Origin: Acidobacteriota bacterium
GTDB taxonomy: Bacteria; Aquificota; Aquificia; Aquificales; Aquificaceae
Reading direction: 5' to 3'
Assembly: GCA_003696155.1 (NCBI GenBank)
Contig: RFFP01000035.1
Location: 1 to 35,017, forward strand
DNA: 35,017 nucleotides
Shown here: positions 1-8,059 of the stretch, piece by piece
Position numbering within the stretch: position 1 is the stretch's first letter
Layout: each line of letters begins with the position of its first letter
Position numbers and translations under genes: made by a program
Notes under the pieces: generated by a model
Seen by the model: only the letters and a program-made list of their open reading frames with translations
What the model was told of the DNA's origin: nothing
The model's database searches: none

Positions 1-990
1 GGCTTTAACCTTAACTACGGAGAGCTTTACCTTTATGCACCAGTAGACCCCTACTTTGACCTTTTTGCCACCATACCTTTTTCCGAAGAAGGCTCTGAGA
101 TTGAAGAGGCTTACGCAGTCACACGCGGTCTTCCTTTTGGTCTTCAGCTAAAGGTGGGTAAATTCAGAAGCTCCTTTGGAAGGCTAAACGCCCAGCATCC
201 GCATGTATGGGACTTTGCCAACCAGCCCCTTGTTTATAAGGTCTTTTTGGGTGATGATGGGCTAACAGAAAAGGGAGTTCAGTTAAACTGGCTTGCACCC
301 ACACCCTTTTACCTTCTCTTTGGTCTGGAGGTCCTGCAGGGTGAAAACGAGCAAAGCTTTGGCACCGATGGTTTTCTATCAGTCGGAGACACGCGCAAGC
401 CAAATCTTTATTTGGGCTTTGTGAAGACCTCCTTTGATATTGGCAACCTTTCACTGCTCACAGGTCTCTCTTATGCGACAGGACACACCAGAATAAACCA
501 CCTTGAGACTGACAACCCTCATGCCTTTGCAGGAAAGACTAAGCTCTACGGGTTTGACCTTACAGCCAAATACCTTATTGACTCTTACAGGTATGTGTCC
601 TTGCAAGGTGAGTATATCTACAGAGACCAAAAGGGAACAAGATACGCTTACGACAACAACAATAACCTTATAACTTCTTCTGTTAGCAAAAAACAGGCAG
701 GTTTTTATGCGCAGGCGGTCTGGAGGTTTGCAAAAAGGTGGAGAGCAGGCATCCAGTATAACCTCATAAACAAGAACGATGTAAAGGTTAACGCGCAAAA
801 GAGAAACCTTTCTGACAATCTACCTGCCTATTATGCCATGCTTGAGTTTAACCCTACAGAGTTCTCAAGGGTCAGGCTGCAGGTAGGTCAAAACAGGGCT
901 TTTTATCACGAGGGTCAAAGGAAAACGGTAAACGAGGTGATACTTCAGTTTAACTTTGCTATAGGAGCCCACGGTGCCCATCCCTTCTAA
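1..990 (+). CDS. Outer-membrane beta-barrel (porin-like) protein, zinc-uptake associated; 5' end cut off
   Basis: The reading frame is open from base 1, so the start lies outside the window; about 329 residues are visible. The sequence is rich in alternating aromatic/polar strands and ends in phenylalanine, as expected for an outer-membrane barrel. A segment around window positions 160-300 (GKFRSSFGRLNAQHPH, then FxGxxGLxxxGVxLxWLxPTP) resembles the outer-membrane proteins often annotated as zinc-regulated TonB-dependent receptor-like and encoded next to znuA. The C-terminus GAHGAHPF adds two histidines. The stop is 12 bp before the ZnuA-like gene, which has its own GGAGGT, so co-transcription is likely. 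Role inferred: passage of metal across the outer membrane. No TonB box or plug domain is visible in this part, so a plain porin is equally possible. Confidence 0.75.
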   Translation, partial: GFNLNYGELYLYAPVDPYFDLFATIPFSEEGSEIEEAYAVTRGLPFGLQLKVGKFRSSFGRLNAQHPHVWDFANQPLVYKVFLGDDGLTEKGVQLNWLAPTPFYLLFGLEVLQGENEQSFGTDGFLSVGDTRKPNLYLGFVKTSFDIGNLSLLTGLSYATGHTRINHLETDNPHAFAGKTKLYGFDLTAKYLIDSYRYVSLQGEYIYRDQKGTRYAYDNNNNLITSSVSKKQAGFYAQAVWRFAKRWRAGIQYNLINKNDVKVNAQKRNLSDNLPAYYAMLEFNPTEFSRVRLQVGQNRAFYHEGQRKTVNEVILQFNFAIGAHGAHPF

Positions 991-1002
991 GGAGGTCTAA
1001 GC

Positions 1003-1875
1003 GTGCTTAAGGTGTTTTTAACACTGCTTTTTGTGGTAGCTCTTTCTTTTGCTCAGCTTAGAGTAGTTGCCACATACCCATGGATAGGCGAGCTTGTAAA
1101 AGAGATAGGTAAAGATAGGGTAAGCGTGTATGTTATAGCCAAAGGCACAGAAGACCCTCACTTTGTGGTGCCAAAGCCATCACACATAGCCAGGCTTAGA
1201 GATGCGGACCTTCTTATAGCGCAGGGTGCAAGCCTTGAGGTGGGCTTTCTGCCCCCTCTTTTACAGCAGTCTAACAATCCCAAAGTGCAACCCGGAAGAG
1301 AAGGCTTTTTGGAACTATCGGAGTTTGTCCAGATTATACAAAAGCCAGCGAGCGTTTCAAGAGCTATGGGTGATGTGCATTCAGAAGGAAACCCCCACTA
1401 TCAGCTTGACCCTCACAACATTCCCCTTTTGGCAAAGGCGCTAAAAGAAAAACTTTGCCAGCTTGACAGTAAGAATTGCACCTACTACAGGGCAAACCTT
1501 GAGGACTTTTTGGCGCGATGGGAAGGTAAGCTAAAAGAATGGGACAAAGGCCTTGAAAAGCTAAGAGGCACAAAAATCATAGAGTATCACAAGCTCTTTG
1601 ACTACCTTCTTGCAAGATATGGAATTGTTCTTGTGGGAACGCTGGAGCCTCTCCCTGGCATTCCCCCTACCGCAAGCCACATAAACAACCTCGTAGAGAC
1701 CTCTAAAGGTGTAAGGTTTATACTACAGGATGTTTACCACGAGAAAAGAACCGCTCGGTATGTGGCTCAAAAGCTGGGTGCCAAACTTGTGGTGCTTCCT
1801 CACGATGTGGGAGCCCTGCCGGAAGCAAAAGACCTCTTTTCTCTCTTTGACGAAATACTAAGGAGGCTACAGTGA
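1003..1875 (+). CDS. znuA: Metal (Zn/Mn) ABC transporter substrate-binding protein, ZnuA/TroA family
   Basis: A 290-residue protein starting at GTG, preceded by GGAGGT. A cleavable signal peptide (about 18 residues, ending SFAQ) sends it to the periplasm. Cluster 9 binding-protein features are present: DPHFVVPKPSHIARLRDADLL near residue 45 (first His ligand), NPHYQLDPHNI near residue 130 (second His), EYHKLFDYLLARYGI near residue 195 (third His), and a C-terminal DVYHEKRTARYVAQKLGAK segment where the acidic ligand usually lies. The His-rich loop of enteric ZnuA is nearly absent (only GDVHSEG). It overlaps the following permease start by 4 bp (GTGA). Zinc is the likely cargo from family and neighbours, but manganese cannot be excluded. 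Confidence 0.85.
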   Translation: MLKVFLTLLFVVALSFAQLRVVATYPWIGELVKEIGKDRVSVYVIAKGTEDPHFVVPKPSHIARLRDADLLIAQGASLEVGFLPPLLQQSNNPKVQPGREGFLELSEFVQIIQKPASVSRAMGDVHSEGNPHYQLDPHNIPLLAKALKEKLCQLDSKNCTYYRANLEDFLARWEGKLKEWDKGLEKLRGTKIIEYHKLFDYLLARYGIVLVGTLEPLPGIPPTASHINNLVETSKGVRFILQDVYHEKRTARYVAQKLGAKLVVLPHDVGALPEAKDLFSLFDEILRRLQ

Positions 1876-2600
1876 TAGATGTGTTCCTGCACGCTCTTAT
1901 CCTCTCCTTTATCCTACTGGGAATTCACGCTTACTTTGGGTTTGAGATAGTAAGAAGAGGAATAATATTCACAGATATTGCCATAGCGCAGTTTTCCGCT
2001 GTAGGGCTTGCTATATCTTTGCTTCTTTATGATAAGTCCTCTTACGCTTTGGCTCTTCTTTTTGCCATTTTTTCAAGCTTGCTTGTAGCCCTATCCCAGA
2101 GAAAAAAAGAGTATGCTGAAGCCTTCATAGGCATACTTTACGCTCTTGGCTTTTCCTCTGTGGTGCTTTTGCTCTCTAAATCACCCCATGGAATGGAAGA
2201 GTTTTTAAACCTTACCGCATCAGACATCCTCTTTGTGCAAAAGAGGGAAATACTAAAGACAGCCTTGCTTTACACACTCTTTGGTCTTTTAATATACCTT
2301 AGAAAGAGATTTCTAAAAGGTGCGCTAAAAGAGTTTACCTTTTTTGTTCTTTTTTCTCTTACGGTGACAAGCTCGGTAGAGCTTGTGGGAGTGTTCATAG
2401 TATTTTCTATGCTTGTGGCACCCGCACTGACTGCAAAACTCTTAAACAGAGGTCTTCTGTTTGCATGGGTTTATGGCTCCCTTGTGAACACCTTGGGTAT
2501 TGTCATCTCTTTTCAGCTTGACCTTCCTACGGGCTTTAGCCTTGTGTTTGTGCATTCCCTTTTGACCGCTCTCGTATTTTTAGGCAGGGTCTTTATCTGA
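1872..2600 (+). CDS. znuB: ABC-3 family metal transporter permease (ZnuB/TroC-like)
   Basis: A 242-residue integral membrane protein with about seven hydrophobic segments. It begins at GTG inside the stop of the binding-protein gene (4-bp overlap). The family signature segment is VELVGVFIVFSMLVAPALTAKLL near residue 170, matching the GVxLVxALLxxPAATA motif of ABC-3 permeases. The N-terminal region, FEIVRRGIIFTDIAIAQFSAVG, corresponds to the usual coupling region with a small-residue DxAxAH-like stretch. It is shorter and more divergent than the typical 260-280-residue ZnuB. No ATPase gene follows; the next 354 bp are non-coding. The pore must therefore use an ATPase encoded elsewhere. Confidence 0.82.
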   Translation: MIDVFLHALILSFILLGIHAYFGFEIVRRGIIFTDIAIAQFSAVGLAISLLLYDKSSYALALLFAIFSSLLVALSQRKKEYAEAFIGILYALGFSSVVLLLSKSPHGMEEFLNLTASDILFVQKREILKTALLYTLFGLLIYLRKRFLKGALKEFTFFVLFSLTVTSSVELVGVFIVFSMLVAPALTAKLLNRGLLFAWVYGSLVNTLGIVISFQLDLPTGFSLVFVHSLLTALVFLGRVFI

Positions 2601-2890: not shown

Positions 2891-2919
2891 TTGATAATGG
2901 GTCTTATTTTTGTTATAAT
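2891..2919 (+). promoter_or_regulatory. Sigma-70-type promoter of the iron-uptake operon
   Basis: A -35 box TTGATA (2891-2896) and a perfect -10 box TATAAT (2914-2919) are separated by 17 bp, the optimal spacing. It lies 35 bp upstream of the fbpA start. It is one of the best consensus promoters seen in the window. Confidence 0.75.
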
Positions 2920-2930
2920 CATGATAATAA
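2913..2930. promoter_or_regulatory. Fur-box-like palindrome overlapping the -10 box
   Basis: TTATAATCATGATAATAA is an inverted repeat matching at 16 of 18 positions around the ATCATGAT centre. It resembles the AT-rich ATAATCATTAT-type core of Fur operators and covers the -10 hexamer, where a repressor would block transcription. A second, looser inverted repeat flanks it (2896-2908 with 2926-2938, 10 of 13 matching). Its position before a ferric iron importer fits Fur control; the assignment rests on pattern and context. Confidence 0.55.
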
Positions 2931-2940
2931 ATCTCATTTT

Positions 2941-2954: not shown

Positions 2955-3941
2955 ATGACGGCTCTATGGTCTTTGCTTGTGGGCCTTGTGGCCCTTTTTA
3001 GCTTTTCCCTTGCCCAGGAAGTCGTTATCTACTCGGGAAGGTCTGAAAGGCTTGTAAAGCCCGTGCTCGATGAGTTTTCCAAAAGGACGGGCATAAGGTA
3101 TGTGCTCCATTCGGCGGGTACGGTAGAGCTCTACAATAAACTCCTGGCGGAAGGGGACAGGTCCCCCGCAGACCTCTTCCTTACGGTGGACGGAGGAACA
3201 CTGGAGAGAGCAAGGATAGCTGGTCTTCTGCAGCCTATTAGGTCTGAACTGGTGACTCAAAAGGTGCCTTCTCAGATGCGTGCACCGGACAACAGCTGGG
3301 TAGGAGTATCTCTGAGGTTTAGGGTGATAGCCTACAACCCAAAGAAGGTAAAGCCTCAGGAGGTTAGAGACTTTGAAAGTCTTATGAACCTAAAATGGAA
3401 GGGCAGACTTGGCATAAGAACGGGTTCTAACGTCTATCCCCAGTCCCACACAGCCATGATGATAGCGGAGAAGGGAGAGGCCTACACGGAGAGGTTCCTA
3501 AGGGCCATAGTGGCCAACGCAGGGGACAAGATATATCCCTCGGATGCCAGAATAGTAGAGGCTATAGCAAGGGGTGAGATAGATGTGGGCATAGTGAACC
3601 ACTACTATGTGCACCTTCACCTAAAGAAAAACCCCAATGACAAGGAAAACCTTGCCTTTGTTGCTCCGTCTGGGACAGCCTATAACGTATCCGGCGTAGG
3701 TCTTCTGAAGACCAGTAGAAACAGAGAAGCTGCGATAAAATTGATAGAGTTTTTAGTCTCCGATGAGGGTCAGAGGCTCTTTGCAGAGGAGAACATGGAG
3801 TATCCGGTCAACCCTAAGGTACCCGTACCAAAGGATATGATACCCAGAGATAAGCTGAAGCTAAGTAAGGTTTCTATCCATACCATGGGGCTTTACATGA
3901 TCACAGCCATGGACCTCATAGACAAGGTAGGCTATAGGTGA
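2955..3941 (+). CDS. fbpA: Fe(3+) ABC transporter substrate-binding protein, FbpA/FutA family
   Basis: A 328-residue periplasmic iron-binding protein. The signal peptide is about 20 residues (ends FSFSLAQ). Features of the ferric-binding branch of the periplasmic binding superfamily are visible: IYSGRSERLVKP just after the signal peptide, SPADLFLTVDGGTLERA near residue 75, and GIVNHYYVHLHLKKNP near residue 215, where adjacent tyrosines act as iron ligands in this family. The C-terminal EFLVSDEGQRLFAEENMEYPVNP is typical of FutA/FbpA. It is the first gene of the iron operon, with a consensus promoter, Fur-like operator and very strong ribosome site; the permease starts 1 bp after its stop. Confidence 0.92.
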   Translation: MTALWSLLVGLVALFSFSLAQEVVIYSGRSERLVKPVLDEFSKRTGIRYVLHSAGTVELYNKLLAEGDRSPADLFLTVDGGTLERARIAGLLQPIRSELVTQKVPSQMRAPDNSWVGVSLRFRVIAYNPKKVKPQEVRDFESLMNLKWKGRLGIRTGSNVYPQSHTAMMIAEKGEAYTERFLRAIVANAGDKIYPSDARIVEAIARGEIDVGIVNHYYVHLHLKKNPNDKENLAFVAPSGTAYNVSGVGLLKTSRNREAAIKLIEFLVSDEGQRLFAEENMEYPVNPKVPVPKDMIPRDKLKLSKVSIHTMGLYMITAMDLIDKVGYR

Positions 3942-3942
3942 T

Positions 3943-5493
3943 ATGCTAAGGCTGTTTGCCGTTGGGGTTGCAGTTCTTGCCTCCCTCCCCCTTTTCTTTA
4001 CCCTTTACGGTGGACTTACTGTGGACCCAGAGCTCTGGGTAAAGCTTTACCAAACCAGGCTTAGTGTGCTCCTACCTAATACCCTGAAGTTGCTTCTTTC
4101 TGTGGGCTGTCTTGTCCTTTTGATAGGCGTATCGAGCGCTTGGCTTGTGAGCAGGTATAACTTTCCCGGCAGAAGGCTTTGGGAATGGCTTTTAGTTCTT
4201 CCCTTCGCCGCCCCTGGCTACATCCTTGCCTATGCTTACGCCAGTATAATGGCTCCAGGGGGACCAGCTCAAGAGCTATGGAAAAGCCTTTTTGAGGACC
4301 TTCCCATGCCTTCACTCTACTCTTTCTGGGGTGTCTCTTTGGTCCTTAGCCTGGTAAACTACCCTTACGTGTACCTCTTGGCAAGGTCAAGTTTCTTAAG
4401 CCAGAACGAGCAGTATCAAGAGATAAGCAAGGTGCTAGGTGCCTCAAGGCTTAAAAGGTTCTTCAGGGTGAGCTTGCCTCTTGCCTACCCGGGCATAGCG
4501 GCAGGCCTGTCTTTGGCTCTAATGGAGGTGTTGGCAGACTTTGGAACGGTTAGCCTGCTGAGATATCCTACCTTCACGGAGGCCATATACAGGCAGATGA
4601 CAGGAAGGAGTGACCCTTACGGTGCAGCAGCCTTGGCCTCCCTTCTTGCCACCTTTGCCTTTTTGCTTCTAAGTACAGAAAGGTACTTCAGAGGCAAGAG
4701 GTCCTTTGAACAGACAAAGAGCTTTAAGCCACCAAAGGCAAGGGAGCTTTCCCTTCTTGGCAGCCTTGCGGTCAACATATATCTATTTTTGCTTTTAAGT
4801 CTTGCCTTCTTTATACCTATCTCCATGCTCCTAAAGATGGCTTTGACGGGTGCATCCCAAGGTGCCCTTGACCCAAGGTTCTTTAAATACGCCTTTAACA
4901 GCCTCCTTGTGTCCTTTCTTGGAGCTTCTTTTGCAACCCTGCTGGCTCTGCCCATAGCTTACCTTCATGCCAGAAGGAGTGATTTTTTAAACAGGGCACT
5001 CTTTTATATCTCTTCCCTGGGTTATAGTTTACCCGGCCCAGTGGTCGGAGTTGGTCTCTTGCTGACTGCTACCGCCATCTTTGACTGGCTCTATGGAAGT
5101 CTTACCCTGCTAGTAAGCGCCTATGTGGTGCGGTTTATGAGTGTATCCTTGCAATCCCAGGACTCTTCTCTTTCTATGGTATCAAGGTCTAAAGAAGAGG
5201 TGGCAAGGACTCTGGGAGCAAGCACATGGAGGACCTTCTATAGGGTGCTCCTACCCCTTATCAAAGGTGGGCTATTCTCAGGATGGTTAATCGTATTCGT
5301 TGACTGCATGAAGGAGCTCCCAGCAACCTTGCTTTTAAGACCCTTGGCTTTTGATACCCTAGCTGTAAGGGTTTGGATCGATGCGGCGGAGTCTTTATGG
5401 GAAGCGGCAGCTGTGCCTGCACTCATGATAGTGGCCGTAGGCATTATCCCCCTTATTATAGTTATAGGGAAGATGGGTTATAAGGATGGGTGA
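3943..5493 (+). CDS. fbpB: Fe(3+) ABC transporter permease, FbpB-type (fused double permease)
   Basis: A 516-residue inner-membrane protein with about twelve membrane segments in two homologous halves, as is usual for FbpB. Each half carries an EAA-type coupling loop that contacts the ATPase: EISKVLGASRLKRFFRVSLPLAYPG near residue 160 and EEVARTLGASTWRTFYRVLLPLIKGG near residue 420. It starts at ATG immediately after fbpA and overlaps the ATPase gene by 8 bp, so the three genes form one translationally coupled unit importing ferric iron from the periplasm. Confidence 0.92.
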   Translation: MLRLFAVGVAVLASLPLFFTLYGGLTVDPELWVKLYQTRLSVLLPNTLKLLLSVGCLVLLIGVSSAWLVSRYNFPGRRLWEWLLVLPFAAPGYILAYAYASIMAPGGPAQELWKSLFEDLPMPSLYSFWGVSLVLSLVNYPYVYLLARSSFLSQNEQYQEISKVLGASRLKRFFRVSLPLAYPGIAAGLSLALMEVLADFGTVSLLRYPTFTEAIYRQMTGRSDPYGAAALASLLATFAFLLLSTERYFRGKRSFEQTKSFKPPKARELSLLGSLAVNIYLFLLLSLAFFIPISMLLKMALTGASQGALDPRFFKYAFNSLLVSFLGASFATLLALPIAYLHARRSDFLNRALFYISSLGYSLPGPVVGVGLLLTATAIFDWLYGSLTLLVSAYVVRFMSVSLQSQDSSLSMVSRSKEEVARTLGASTWRTFYRVLLPLIKGGLFSGWLIVFVDCMKELPATLLLRPLAFDTLAVRVWIDAAESLWEAAAVPALMIVAVGIIPLIIVIGKMGYKDG

Positions 5494-6520
5494 ATATCTG
5501 GTTCTTAAAGACGTATCCAAGAGCTTTGGGAAAGTTCATGCTGTTAGAGACCTAAGCTTAGAGGTACAAAAAGGGGAGTTTGTTTCTCTGCTTGGACCCT
5601 CTGGTTGTGGTAAGACCACGGTACTAAGGCTTATAGCTGGGTTGGAAAAGCCCGACAAGGGCATTATAAAGATAGGAGAGAAAATACTTTCAGGACATGG
5701 TTACTGGGTTCCTCCGGAAAAGAGGAGGATAGGGCTTGTCTTTCAGGATTATGCCCTATTTCCCCATATGACCGTCTTTGAAAACGTGGCCTTTGGGCTT
5801 GCTGGACTTAGTAAGAAGGAGAGGCAAGAGAGAGTTATAGAACTCCTCAGTTTAGTTGGACTTGAACATGTGGCAAAGAGATATCCCTCAGAACTTTCTG
5901 GTGGACAAAAGCAGAGGGTAGCCCTTGCCCGTGCTTTGGCTCCCTCACCTGAGGTGATGCTCCTTGATGAGCCCTTCTCCAACCTAGATGCAGACCTAAG
6001 AAAAGATCTTAGGGAAGAGACCAAGGCCATACTCAAAAGGAGTGGGACAACCACCATACTGGTGACCCATGACCAAGAGGAAGCCTTGTCCCTTTCCGAC
6101 AGGGTGGGTGTGCTATGCTGTGGGAAACTTGAGCAGATGGGCACACCGGAGGAGATATACCACAGGCCCATGACCCGCTTTGTGGCAAAGTTTGTGGGAA
6201 GGGGGAGCATAATCGCTGGGAAGGTAGAAAAGGGACGATTGGTTCTTCCCTTTGGTGATGTGGATCTAAACGGCAGGGCTCCGCCCATAGGTGAGAGGCT
6301 GGAGGTGCTCATAAGACCAGAGTACGTATCCCTATTGCCAGACCCCCAGGGAGAGGGGGTTATAGTTTCCGCAGAGTTCATGGGTTCTGAGGTCTTTTAC
6401 GAGGTCGAACTTCCTGATGGCACCATACTTCAGTCCGCTATGCTTTCAACGGTAGTCTTTAGCGTAGGCACAAGGGTGAGACTCAGAGTGGATAAAAAGC
6501 AGGTGGTAATCTTGCCTTAA
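5486..6520 (+). CDS. fbpC: Fe(3+) ABC transporter ATP-binding protein, FbpC-type
   Basis: A 344-residue ATPase driving the FbpB pore. Walker A is GPSGCGKTT (residues 37-45), the Q-loop is in VFQDYALFPHMTV, the signature is LSGGQKQR, Walker B is MLLDEPFSNLD, and the H-loop is in LVTHDQEEAL. After about residue 240 a TOBE-type regulatory domain follows, containing RPEYVSLLPD. Length and layout match the iron/spermidine/maltose CUT1-like ATPases. The ATG lies inside the end of fbpB. The next gene begins 73 bp later. Confidence 0.92.
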   Translation: MGEYLVLKDVSKSFGKVHAVRDLSLEVQKGEFVSLLGPSGCGKTTVLRLIAGLEKPDKGIIKIGEKILSGHGYWVPPEKRRIGLVFQDYALFPHMTVFENVAFGLAGLSKKERQERVIELLSLVGLEHVAKRYPSELSGGQKQRVALARALAPSPEVMLLDEPFSNLDADLRKDLREETKAILKRSGTTTILVTHDQEEALSLSDRVGVLCCGKLEQMGTPEEIYHRPMTRFVAKFVGRGSIIAGKVEKGRLVLPFGDVDLNGRAPPIGERLEVLIRPEYVSLLPDPQGEGVIVSAEFMGSEVFYEVELPDGTILQSAMLSTVVFSVGTRVRLRVDKKQVVILP

Positions 6521-6593: not shown

Positions 6594-7124
6594 ATGTGTA
6601 GAAGATGCTTAACCGTAGTTATCTTACTCCTTGGTTTTACCCTTGCCCTATCGAGGGAGTTCAAAAAGCCTGAACAAGCCCTATTACAGATATACAAAAA
6701 GGCTCAGCTAGAGGTCAAAAAAATAGTTCTATCGCAGGAGCAGGTCCAGGAGGTTCAAAGGCTCTCGGGCGTGAGGATAGATAAGAAGGAGGTCTCTTGG
6801 TATATAGTTAAGAAAGGGAGCCAGACCATAGCCTATGGCTTTGTAGATACCCACGTAGTGCGTACTCGCACAGAGGTTGTTCTTTATACCATAACGCCCG
6901 AGGGAAAATTGGACGTGGTAGAGGTACTCGCCTTTAACGAGCCCCTTGAATACATGTCTGAAGACCAGTGGCTAAAGCTTTTTGCAGGCAAACAGCTCAA
7001 CAAAGACCCCCTCAAACTGAAGCGTGATATACCCAACATAACAGGTGCCACACTTACCGCAAGGGCCATAACAGACAACGCAAGGAAGGTCCTTGCCCTC
7101 TGGCAAGTGCTTTTTGGAAGATGA
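6594..7124 (+). CDS. Secreted FMN-binding domain protein with flavinylation motif
   Basis: A 176-residue protein from the ATG at 6594; an in-frame GTG at 6534 would add 20 residues before the signal peptide and is less likely. The N-terminus (CRRCLTVVILLLGFTLALS) is a signal sequence or membrane anchor. The rest resembles the FMN-binding domain of RnfG/NqrC: a variable N-terminal part, DTHVVRTRTEVVLYTITPEGKLDVVEVLAFNEP in the middle, then NITGATLTARAITD. TGATLT at residues 150-155 fits the S/TGAT-x-S/T motif where ApbE attaches FMN through a phosphoester to the last threonine (T155). So it probably carries covalent FMN outside the cytoplasm. It overlaps the next gene by 4 bp and lies directly downstream of the ferric importer. 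No apbE is in the window. Confidence 0.82.
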   Translation: MCRRCLTVVILLLGFTLALSREFKKPEQALLQIYKKAQLEVKKIVLSQEQVQEVQRLSGVRIDKKEVSWYIVKKGSQTIAYGFVDTHVVRTRTEVVLYTITPEGKLDVVEVLAFNEPLEYMSEDQWLKLFAGKQLNKDPLKLKRDIPNITGATLTARAITDNARKVLALWQVLFGR

Positions 7125-8059
7125 GGTTCTTTGTATCCTCAGATATAAGGAAAAATAAACCCCTTTTCTACGGTGTGCTTTTCTTCTTGGCTTTTACCCT
7201 GTTCTTCTGGCTTGCCTCATGGCTTCACTTTTATTCCAAATACGGCTTCTCCAAGGAAAGCCTCTTTAGGTACTACTTTGTGGACCCCCAGTTTCCTGAG
7301 AGGATATCCATAGGCCAACTATCAGAGGACATACATGTGGGTCTTTTCCTTCATGCCATGACCCTTATGGTGCTCTTCTCACTAATAGGCATAACGAGGG
7401 TGAGGTTTAAGAAGCTTCTAATCATCCTTTCAAGCTTATCTGCCCTTCTCTACATAGTGAGCGACCTGATAATCTACCTTTTTGGTGGCGTTTTTCTAAA
7501 GCTCGTTAGTTTCCTGGTTTATCAGGTTCTTTTTATTCTCCTTTGGTCTTTCACCCTCTGGGGACTTACCACAAACAACGGACAAAAAGGGAGCACTTCA
7601 ACGGTCAAGAGTGTAAGCTTTATCTTTTCCCTTTTTTCCCTTCTTTTTCTCCTCTCTAACTTTCTAAACTTCTTTGTCAAAATGGGATTTGGTATTAACA
7701 GCATAAGCAATTACTACCTAGGAAATCCAGAACTCCTCATAAAGAGAAAGACCTTGGAGGGTGTCTTTAAGGTCTTTTATCCCCACCTTGTATCTATGGC
7801 TATCTACGTGCTTACCCTATCCCACCTCTTGCCCTTCTCCAAGGTAAGCAGAAAGAAGAGCATATTCTTTGGCTTTTCCATGTTTATCCTTTCTTCCCTT
7901 GATAACTTTTCAAGCTTGCTTATCCTCTATATGGGTACACCCGTAGCTTACCTCAAGCTACTGAGCTTCTTGCTCTTTCAGCTCCTTGCCCTGTATGCTA
8001 GCCTTCTCATCATGGCTGCCTCTCTTAGGAGGGAGGAGTATCCGGCACTCTATCTATAA
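7121..8059 (+). CDS. Eight-TM membrane protein with two 4-TM repeats, partner of the FMN protein
   Basis: Not recognised as a named family. The 312 residues contain about eight hydrophobic helices (roughly 16-35, 72-91, 99-121, 125-148, 165-185, 220-239, 249-271, 276-298). The two halves are homologous: YYxxxP at 51-56 and 198-203; E69 nine residues before H78, and E213 nine before H222; ILSSL at 102-106 and 256-260; FLKLVSFLVYQVLF (125-138) against YLKLLSFLLFQLLA (277-290). The paired histidines H78/H222, plus H36, H72 and H235, are candidates for binding haem or metal. ATGA overlap with the flavinylated protein indicates tight coupling. I infer an electron carrier that reduces the FMN protein from the membrane quinone pool; an inner-membrane transporter is the alternative. 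Confidence 0.75.
   Translation: MRFFVSSDIRKNKPLFYGVLFFLAFTLFFWLASWLHFYSKYGFSKESLFRYYFVDPQFPERISIGQLSEDIHVGLFLHAMTLMVLFSLIGITRVRFKKLLIILSSLSALLYIVSDLIIYLFGGVFLKLVSFLVYQVLFILLWSFTLWGLTTNNGQKGSTSTVKSVSFIFSLFSLLFLLSNFLNFFVKMGFGINSISNYYLGNPELLIKRKTLEGVFKVFYPHLVSMAIYVLTLSHLLPFSKVSRKKSIFFGFSMFILSSLDNFSSLLILYMGTPVAYLKLLSFLLFQLLALYASLLIMAASLRREEYPALYL

Follow-up and report, generated by a model that had tools for sequence, protein, structure and literature searches.

Flavinylated systems for extracytosolic electron transfer have been described in which the membrane parts are NapH-, MsrQ-, PepSY-, DsbD- or RNF/NQR-like (PMC8238504), and some systems of this type are already linked to iron (PMC8238504, PMC11334425). 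The module analyzed here belongs with them. Like the systems of PMC8238504, it has a membrane protein as the partner of a secreted FMN_bind protein, together with ApbE, and iron genes lie near some of those systems as well; it differs from them in a membrane partner that falls outside the listed families, in a porin that most of its operons contain, and in Fur-type boxes found across phyla. The membrane partner also recalls the DUF4405/FezC heme b proteins, which are helical membrane proteins with conserved histidines encoded near flavinylation genes or linked to iron (PMC11334425). DUF4405, however, has six helices and four central histidines (PMC11334425), whereas the unit here has four transmembrane (TM) helices and three histidines, is duplicated and split, and has no Pfam match. 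The secreted protein is a distant homologue of RnfG and NqrC (RnfG chain 9eri_G, E 2e-10 by profile), but it reaches 26.1 bits against TIGR01947, far under the cut-off of 102 bits, and its partner is not RnfD/NqrB. In NqrC itself, the flavinylation motif spans Asp223 to Thr229, and FMN sits on Thr229 (PMC4348036).

Two further comparisons concern iron. As far as the description of the Bradyrhizobium system goes, FsrB and FeoAB together reduce Fe(III) in the periplasm and then import the Fe(II) (PMC10760861), which is a precedent for what we propose below; the likeness is one of description, and FsrB acts on ferric siderophores. The other comparison is with FbpABC/FutABC importers, to which the fbpABC genes of this locus belong, although such importers are not part of the conserved module. 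The flavin-based type of system is known, and what is new is the membrane protein, its porin partner and the proposed inter-protomer site architecture. We found no paper describing a porin-FMN-4TM module among open-licence papers, supplementary files apart.

The whole stretch of DNA analyzed, hereafter the window, has 35,017 nucleotides and is contig C14 of a 1.47 Mb Aquificota genome (G000) whose relatives are named Aquificaceae, Hydrogenobacter and Thermocrinis; the host of the gene pair is a hot-spring bacterium. The first gene of the pair (6594..7124, + strand, start ATG at 6594) encodes a secreted protein of 176 aa with a hydrophobic N-terminus and an FMN_bind domain (PF04205; 24.6 bits against the Pfam cut-off of 22), a predicted substrate of ApbE. 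The apbE gene was found elsewhere in the genome (G000:C36:4795-5514). As the first-pass annotation had it, the product carries TGATLT at residues 150-155. That annotation placed the FMN on T155, a site we dropped: an alignment of 24 sequences has either T or S at position 155, whereas G151 and T153 of the [S/T]GAT acceptor motif (TGAT, residues 150-153) are invariant, and in NqrC the FMN is on the T of GAT. Going by the motif of the family, we take Thr229 of NqrC to be the T of SGAT, and hence the equivalent of T153; the Asp three residues before the S/T in NqrC is Pro here (PNITGAT). On the NqrC motif and the invariance of T153 against T or S at 155, the flavin acceptor is probably T153 (codon 7050..7052, + strand).

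The second gene (7121..8059, + strand) shares 4 bp (ATGA, 7121-7124) with the end of the first, the overlap noted earlier, and encodes an 8-TM protein of 312 residues with two 4-TM repeats, which we propose to be a transmembrane electron carrier. Its AlphaFold2 model, built with 28 natural sequences (pLDDT 89.9, pTM 0.86), has eight long helices (13-40, 64-89, 97-121, 125-151, 159-187, 212-240, 244-271 and 274-302). Aligned by hhalign, its first half is homologous to its second (probability 98.8%, E 6e-17), so the duplication suspected in the first pass stands: by this homology, the protein is an internal duplication of a 4-TM unit. Neither it nor its 4-TM relatives matched any family in Pfam and NCBIfam, in agreement with the earlier failure to assign a name, and this includes the NapH, MsrQ, PepSY, DsbD, NqrB/RnfD and DUF4405 models. 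A Foldseek search of the 8-TM model against solved structures returned nothing at E ≤ 0.001 (the best hit was heme A synthase, E 0.64, TM-score 0.21), the model of a single 4-TM protein had no significant structural match among solved structures, and a PDB profile search with the 8-TM alignment gave no significant match either. The structure searches thus returned no b-type-cytochrome-like fold for the 8-TM protein. Three histidines are invariant and lie within model helices 64-89 and 212-240: H72 in repeat A (codon 7334..7336, + strand), and H222 (7784..7786, + strand) and H235 (7823..7825, + strand) in repeat B. From the helix limits and the positive-inside rule, we infer that H72 and H222 would be near the periplasmic face and H235 closer to the cytoplasm. 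An invariant lysine of repeat B, K279 (7955..7957, + strand), has K127 as its counterpart in repeat A.

The pairing of the two genes is strict. Among 136 Aquificota genomes, the 8-TM gene occurs in 66 and the FMN gene in 67, in nearly the same genomes. The TM gene was directly 3' of the FMN gene at all 58 Aquificota loci with room to see it, at 34 of 38 loci from other phyla and at 20/20 further loci from Gammaproteobacteria and Campylobacterota, so the linkage of the two genes to each other that had been anticipated holds in relatives. A porin gene lay upstream or beside them at 34/48 Aquificota loci, 25/27 loci of other phyla and 19/20 of the Gammaproteobacteria and Campylobacterota loci with room; this porin has an N-terminal coiled-coil-like segment, with a Porin_O_P match barely above the cut-off in L064 and a weaker BBP2 match in L200. 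The apbE gene was nearby at 17/58, 22/38 and 16/20 loci of the same three sets, and where not adjacent it was usually elsewhere in the genome. The presence of apbE tracks the FMN gene across the phylum: of the 136 Aquificota genomes, 63 have both, 61 neither, four the FMN gene only and eight apbE only (Fisher p 1e-24, uncorrected for the relatedness of the genomes). A contig scan with the FMN alignment, in genomes that were mostly metagenome-assembled, found the module in Aquificota, Kryptoniota, Nitrospinota, Nitrospirota, Thermodesulfobacteriota, Dadabacteria, Myxococcota, Methylomirabilota, Binatota, Ignavibacteriota, Campylobacterota and Gammaproteobacteria. Judged by these matches, the module spans about ten bacterial phyla, and the pairing is not special to a deep-branching thermophile, as had been supposed.

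The best evidence for iron comes from Fur-type boxes, which point to control of the module by iron starvation. We scanned 250 bp of sequence upstream of the module's first gene for an E. coli-like Fur box (at least 14/19). Such a box was present at 17/20 loci from Gammaproteobacteria and Campylobacterota, compared with 1/42 upstream regions of other genes at those loci (p 2.6e-11), and at 15/37 loci of the remaining non-Aquificota set, against 2/40 (p 1.6e-4); permuted palindromes of like composition, our control, were rare (mostly 0-3). The E. coli-type box showed no enrichment in Aquificota at the threshold used, and we adopted a variant 7-1-7 palindrome, TGAGATTNAATCTCA, instead. It was present in 46/56 cases against 1/98, usually 20-40 bp before the first gene, counted on the same upstream regions on which it was defined, the independent check being the other genes that it precedes. 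In G062, a TGAGATTNAATCTCA-type box precedes feoA, feoB and a second module-type porin gene, and also a FUR-family gene, where it overlaps the gene start. Among Aquificota feoB genes with a findable start, the box was upstream in 11/18, mostly just before feoA, compared with 11% of random 700-bp segments; the other 7 of the 18 feo regions had no box. In the genome of the window, TGAGATTTTATATTA precedes feoA, and a Fur-type 7-1-7 box recognized by sequence match, TGATAATAAATCTCA (2922..2936), lies 33 bp before the ATG of fbpA, with a good -10 on one side and the Shine-Dalgarno sequence on the other. The promoter-like site upstream of fbpA is sigma-70-like (TTGATA-17-TATAAT, 2891..2919, + strand, 11/12 to the consensus); promoter-like sites were not enriched in the region as a whole. 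In relatives, the corresponding Fur-type box precedes the porin gene. Genome-wide, a relaxed box pattern was at best modestly above control, with 1 match against 3 in the genome of the window and 18 against 9 in G099.

Iron genes also occur beside the module, scattered among loci. In L200, the porin and FMN genes are separated by bfd and a ferritin-like gene (bfr); in L190, the neighbors of the module include two imelysins and one DHOR di-heme protein; and in G099, feoAB is two genes from a divergent porin. Some Campylobacterota loci have MntP-like manganese pumps. Adjacency to fbpABC was seen in one genome only. On these sequence features, iron is the best-supported substrate of the module. 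The iron role given to the pair in the first pass therefore survives on a different footing: its basis is not fbpABC but the Fur-type boxes, the box shared with feoAB and fur, and the scattered iron genes.

On balance, we favor a reading in which the two genes form the core of a module for iron starvation that passes electrons from quinol through the 8-TM carrier to FMN and on to Fe(III) in the periplasm. It draws on features read from the genomes: the protein families, the flavinylation motif, the pairing, the duplication, the split of the histidines, the co-occurrence with apbE and the Fur-type boxes. The 8-TM protein would act as an inner-membrane carrier that takes electrons from the quinol pool and hands them to the FMN presumed to be covalently attached to the secreted protein, which in turn would reduce Fe(III), the putative acceptor, in the periplasm. 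In most relatives, the operon would also supply an outer-membrane porin as the entry for iron complexes; here, fbpABC would replace the porin behind the same kind of Fur box. The Fe(II) produced would be imported by FeoB, and in this bacterium perhaps also by FbpABC. The cofactor may be one bis-histidine heme b held between H72 and H222, beside the FMN, and a putative quinol site near H235 would fit, but no solved structure is close enough to back this arrangement, and the TM family has three histidines, fewer than the four described for DUF4405 cytochromes (PMC11334425).

One reading, which follows the first-pass annotation, is that the pair serves FbpABC in particular and reduces Fe(III) at FbpA or close to it. 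Upstream of the pair lie, all on the + strand, fbpA for a periplasmic Fe(III)-binding protein (2955..3941), fbpB for a fused permease (3943..5493) and fbpC for an ATPase with a TOBE domain (5486..6520). FbpA matches solved Fe(3+)-binding proteins at E 6e-66 and has the paired tyrosines, its NHYY aligning with the YY of 7li0. By this homology, fbpABC is an Fbp/Fut-type ferric importer; the importer had been recognized correctly, but its label "Fur-type" should read Fbp/Fut-type. Just 5' of it, window positions 154-2600 hold a TonB-receptor-like barrel fragment, a ZnuA-type binding protein and an ABC-3 permease, so that metal-transport genes are plentiful at this end of the contig. The FMN gene follows fbpC on the same strand after a gap of 73 bp. 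We saw no terminator-like site on the + strand between the two genes, which suggests that fbpABC and the pair probably form a single transcript, and the Fur-type box before fbpA would suit a partnership too. Yet among the 136 Aquificota genomes, high similarity to FbpA was confined to this genome and G051 (69% identity); two further matches are distant (28-29%), and 132 of the genomes have no FbpA of this kind. The fbpABC genes of G051, the sole close homologues, sit between nuoA-like and nuoB-like genes (L242:5884-9456), and that genome has neither the FMN gene nor the TM gene nor apbE. The pair persists without fbpABC in other genomes; where other Aquificota loci were examined, the FMN gene is preceded by the gene for a porin or a two-CxxCH protein, by apbE or by something unrelated. 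We consider a specific partnership with FbpABC very unlikely. The importer lies outside the conserved module, its linkage to the pair is peculiar to the genome of the window rather than shared by relatives, and we dropped this linkage as a general rule of functional evidence. In the genome of the window, a search with one query protein found no module-type porin, and the two-CxxCH protein gave a weak fragment match alone (E 0.001). Given that G051 is the one other genome with a close FbpA, in another setting, and that no module porin was found here, fbpABC resembles a mobile cassette that has taken the position of the porin in this genome.

Some neighbors of the module would fit an electron acceptor other than iron. 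A two-CxxCH protein of 510-900 aa, with weak family matches (Cytochrome_P460), follows or flanks the porin in several Aquificota (L066:6686-8224, L069:9388-11049 and others), a five-CxxCH protein lies directly 3' of the split TM genes in several Campylobacterota (L211:4946-6046), and CCP_MauG or DHOR di-heme proteins occur in L200, L192 and L190. Electrons might then run from quinol through the TM protein and FMN and on to c-type cytochromes of the periplasm and the outer membrane beside the porin, in a respiratory or extracellular path whose acceptor need not be assimilated iron. We regard this as unlikely: most loci have no cytochromes, and the feature common to the loci is the Fur-type boxes. 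Moreover, imelysins and di-heme proteins of this kind have been tied to iron uptake (PMC3143127), so that di-heme proteins beside imelysins are in themselves an iron-uptake arrangement. Slightly less likely still, the 4-TM/8-TM protein could be a metal permease whose histidines move Fe(II) across the membrane, with FMN reducing the metal by another route. The histidines and the lysine are indeed conserved within helices, and distant 4-TM relatives adjoin either a CbiM-like protein with CbiQ and CbiO, or DUF4198. But 87 of the 88 good Aquificota genomes have FeoB, which makes a second Fe(II) permease unnecessary; CbiMQO, where present, already provides a transporter; and a permease would leave the FMN reductase without an electron source in the module.

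The TM partner comes in three architectures. Most phyla have it as a single 4-TM protein. Two adjacent 4-TM genes encode it in Campylobacterota, in Nitrospinota and in part of the Aquificota (family f2, named Hydrogenothermaceae), whereas Aquificaceae, Kryptoniota and some members of family f2 have the fused 8-TM protein. On a tree of 65 FMN proteins, the single form and the fused form are each one clade and the split form lies in between; the architecture requires two changes, the minimum possible, which points to one origin of the fused form. The histidines sort with the architecture. The singletons have HxH and then a third histidine 13 residues on, with H1, H2 and H3 each present in 28/28 sequences. 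In the duplicated forms, copy A has kept H1 (86/86) and has neither H2 nor H3 (0/86 each), whereas copy B has kept both H2 and H3 (86/86 each) and has mostly lost H1. Because the two copies lost complementary histidines, this pattern suggests that the site of a homodimer is made of H1 from one protomer and H2/H3 from its partner.

Among outlying members, two 4-TM relatives have a CxxCH inserted in the first loop (L232:5957-6709 and L233:5370-6197) and are possible membrane c-type heme versions. Distant 4-TM relatives in Gammaproteobacteria (L227, L228, L230 and L231) have a Met/His-rich loop, and the FMN_bind-like protein paired with this branch has no GAT motif. Since it is this branch that adjoins the CbiM-, CbiQ- and CbiO-like genes or DUF4198, a metal-uptake role may predate the iron module.

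Taken as a whole, the family could represent an undescribed class of transmembrane electron carrier, a proposal that we put forward tentatively. Its ancestor would have been a homodimer with two equivalent H1+H2/H3 sites between protomers; duplication with complementary loss of histidines would have left one site, and fusion would have given the 8-TM form. Together with the FMN_bind protein, the porin and ApbE, the carrier would make up a Fur-controlled system for Fe(III) reduction and uptake in about ten phyla.

Thousands of genomes are known to encode flavinylated proteins, often with no membrane partner assigned, and the pair described here provides one such partner from a family without a name. 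The gene pairing is strict, and the iron-starvation signal points to the job of that partner. If the proposal holds, the residues that must come together between its two halves can be predicted from the histidines that each half has lost. If true, the proposed system would explain how iron is reduced for uptake in Aquificota, Campylobacterota, Methylococcales and others.
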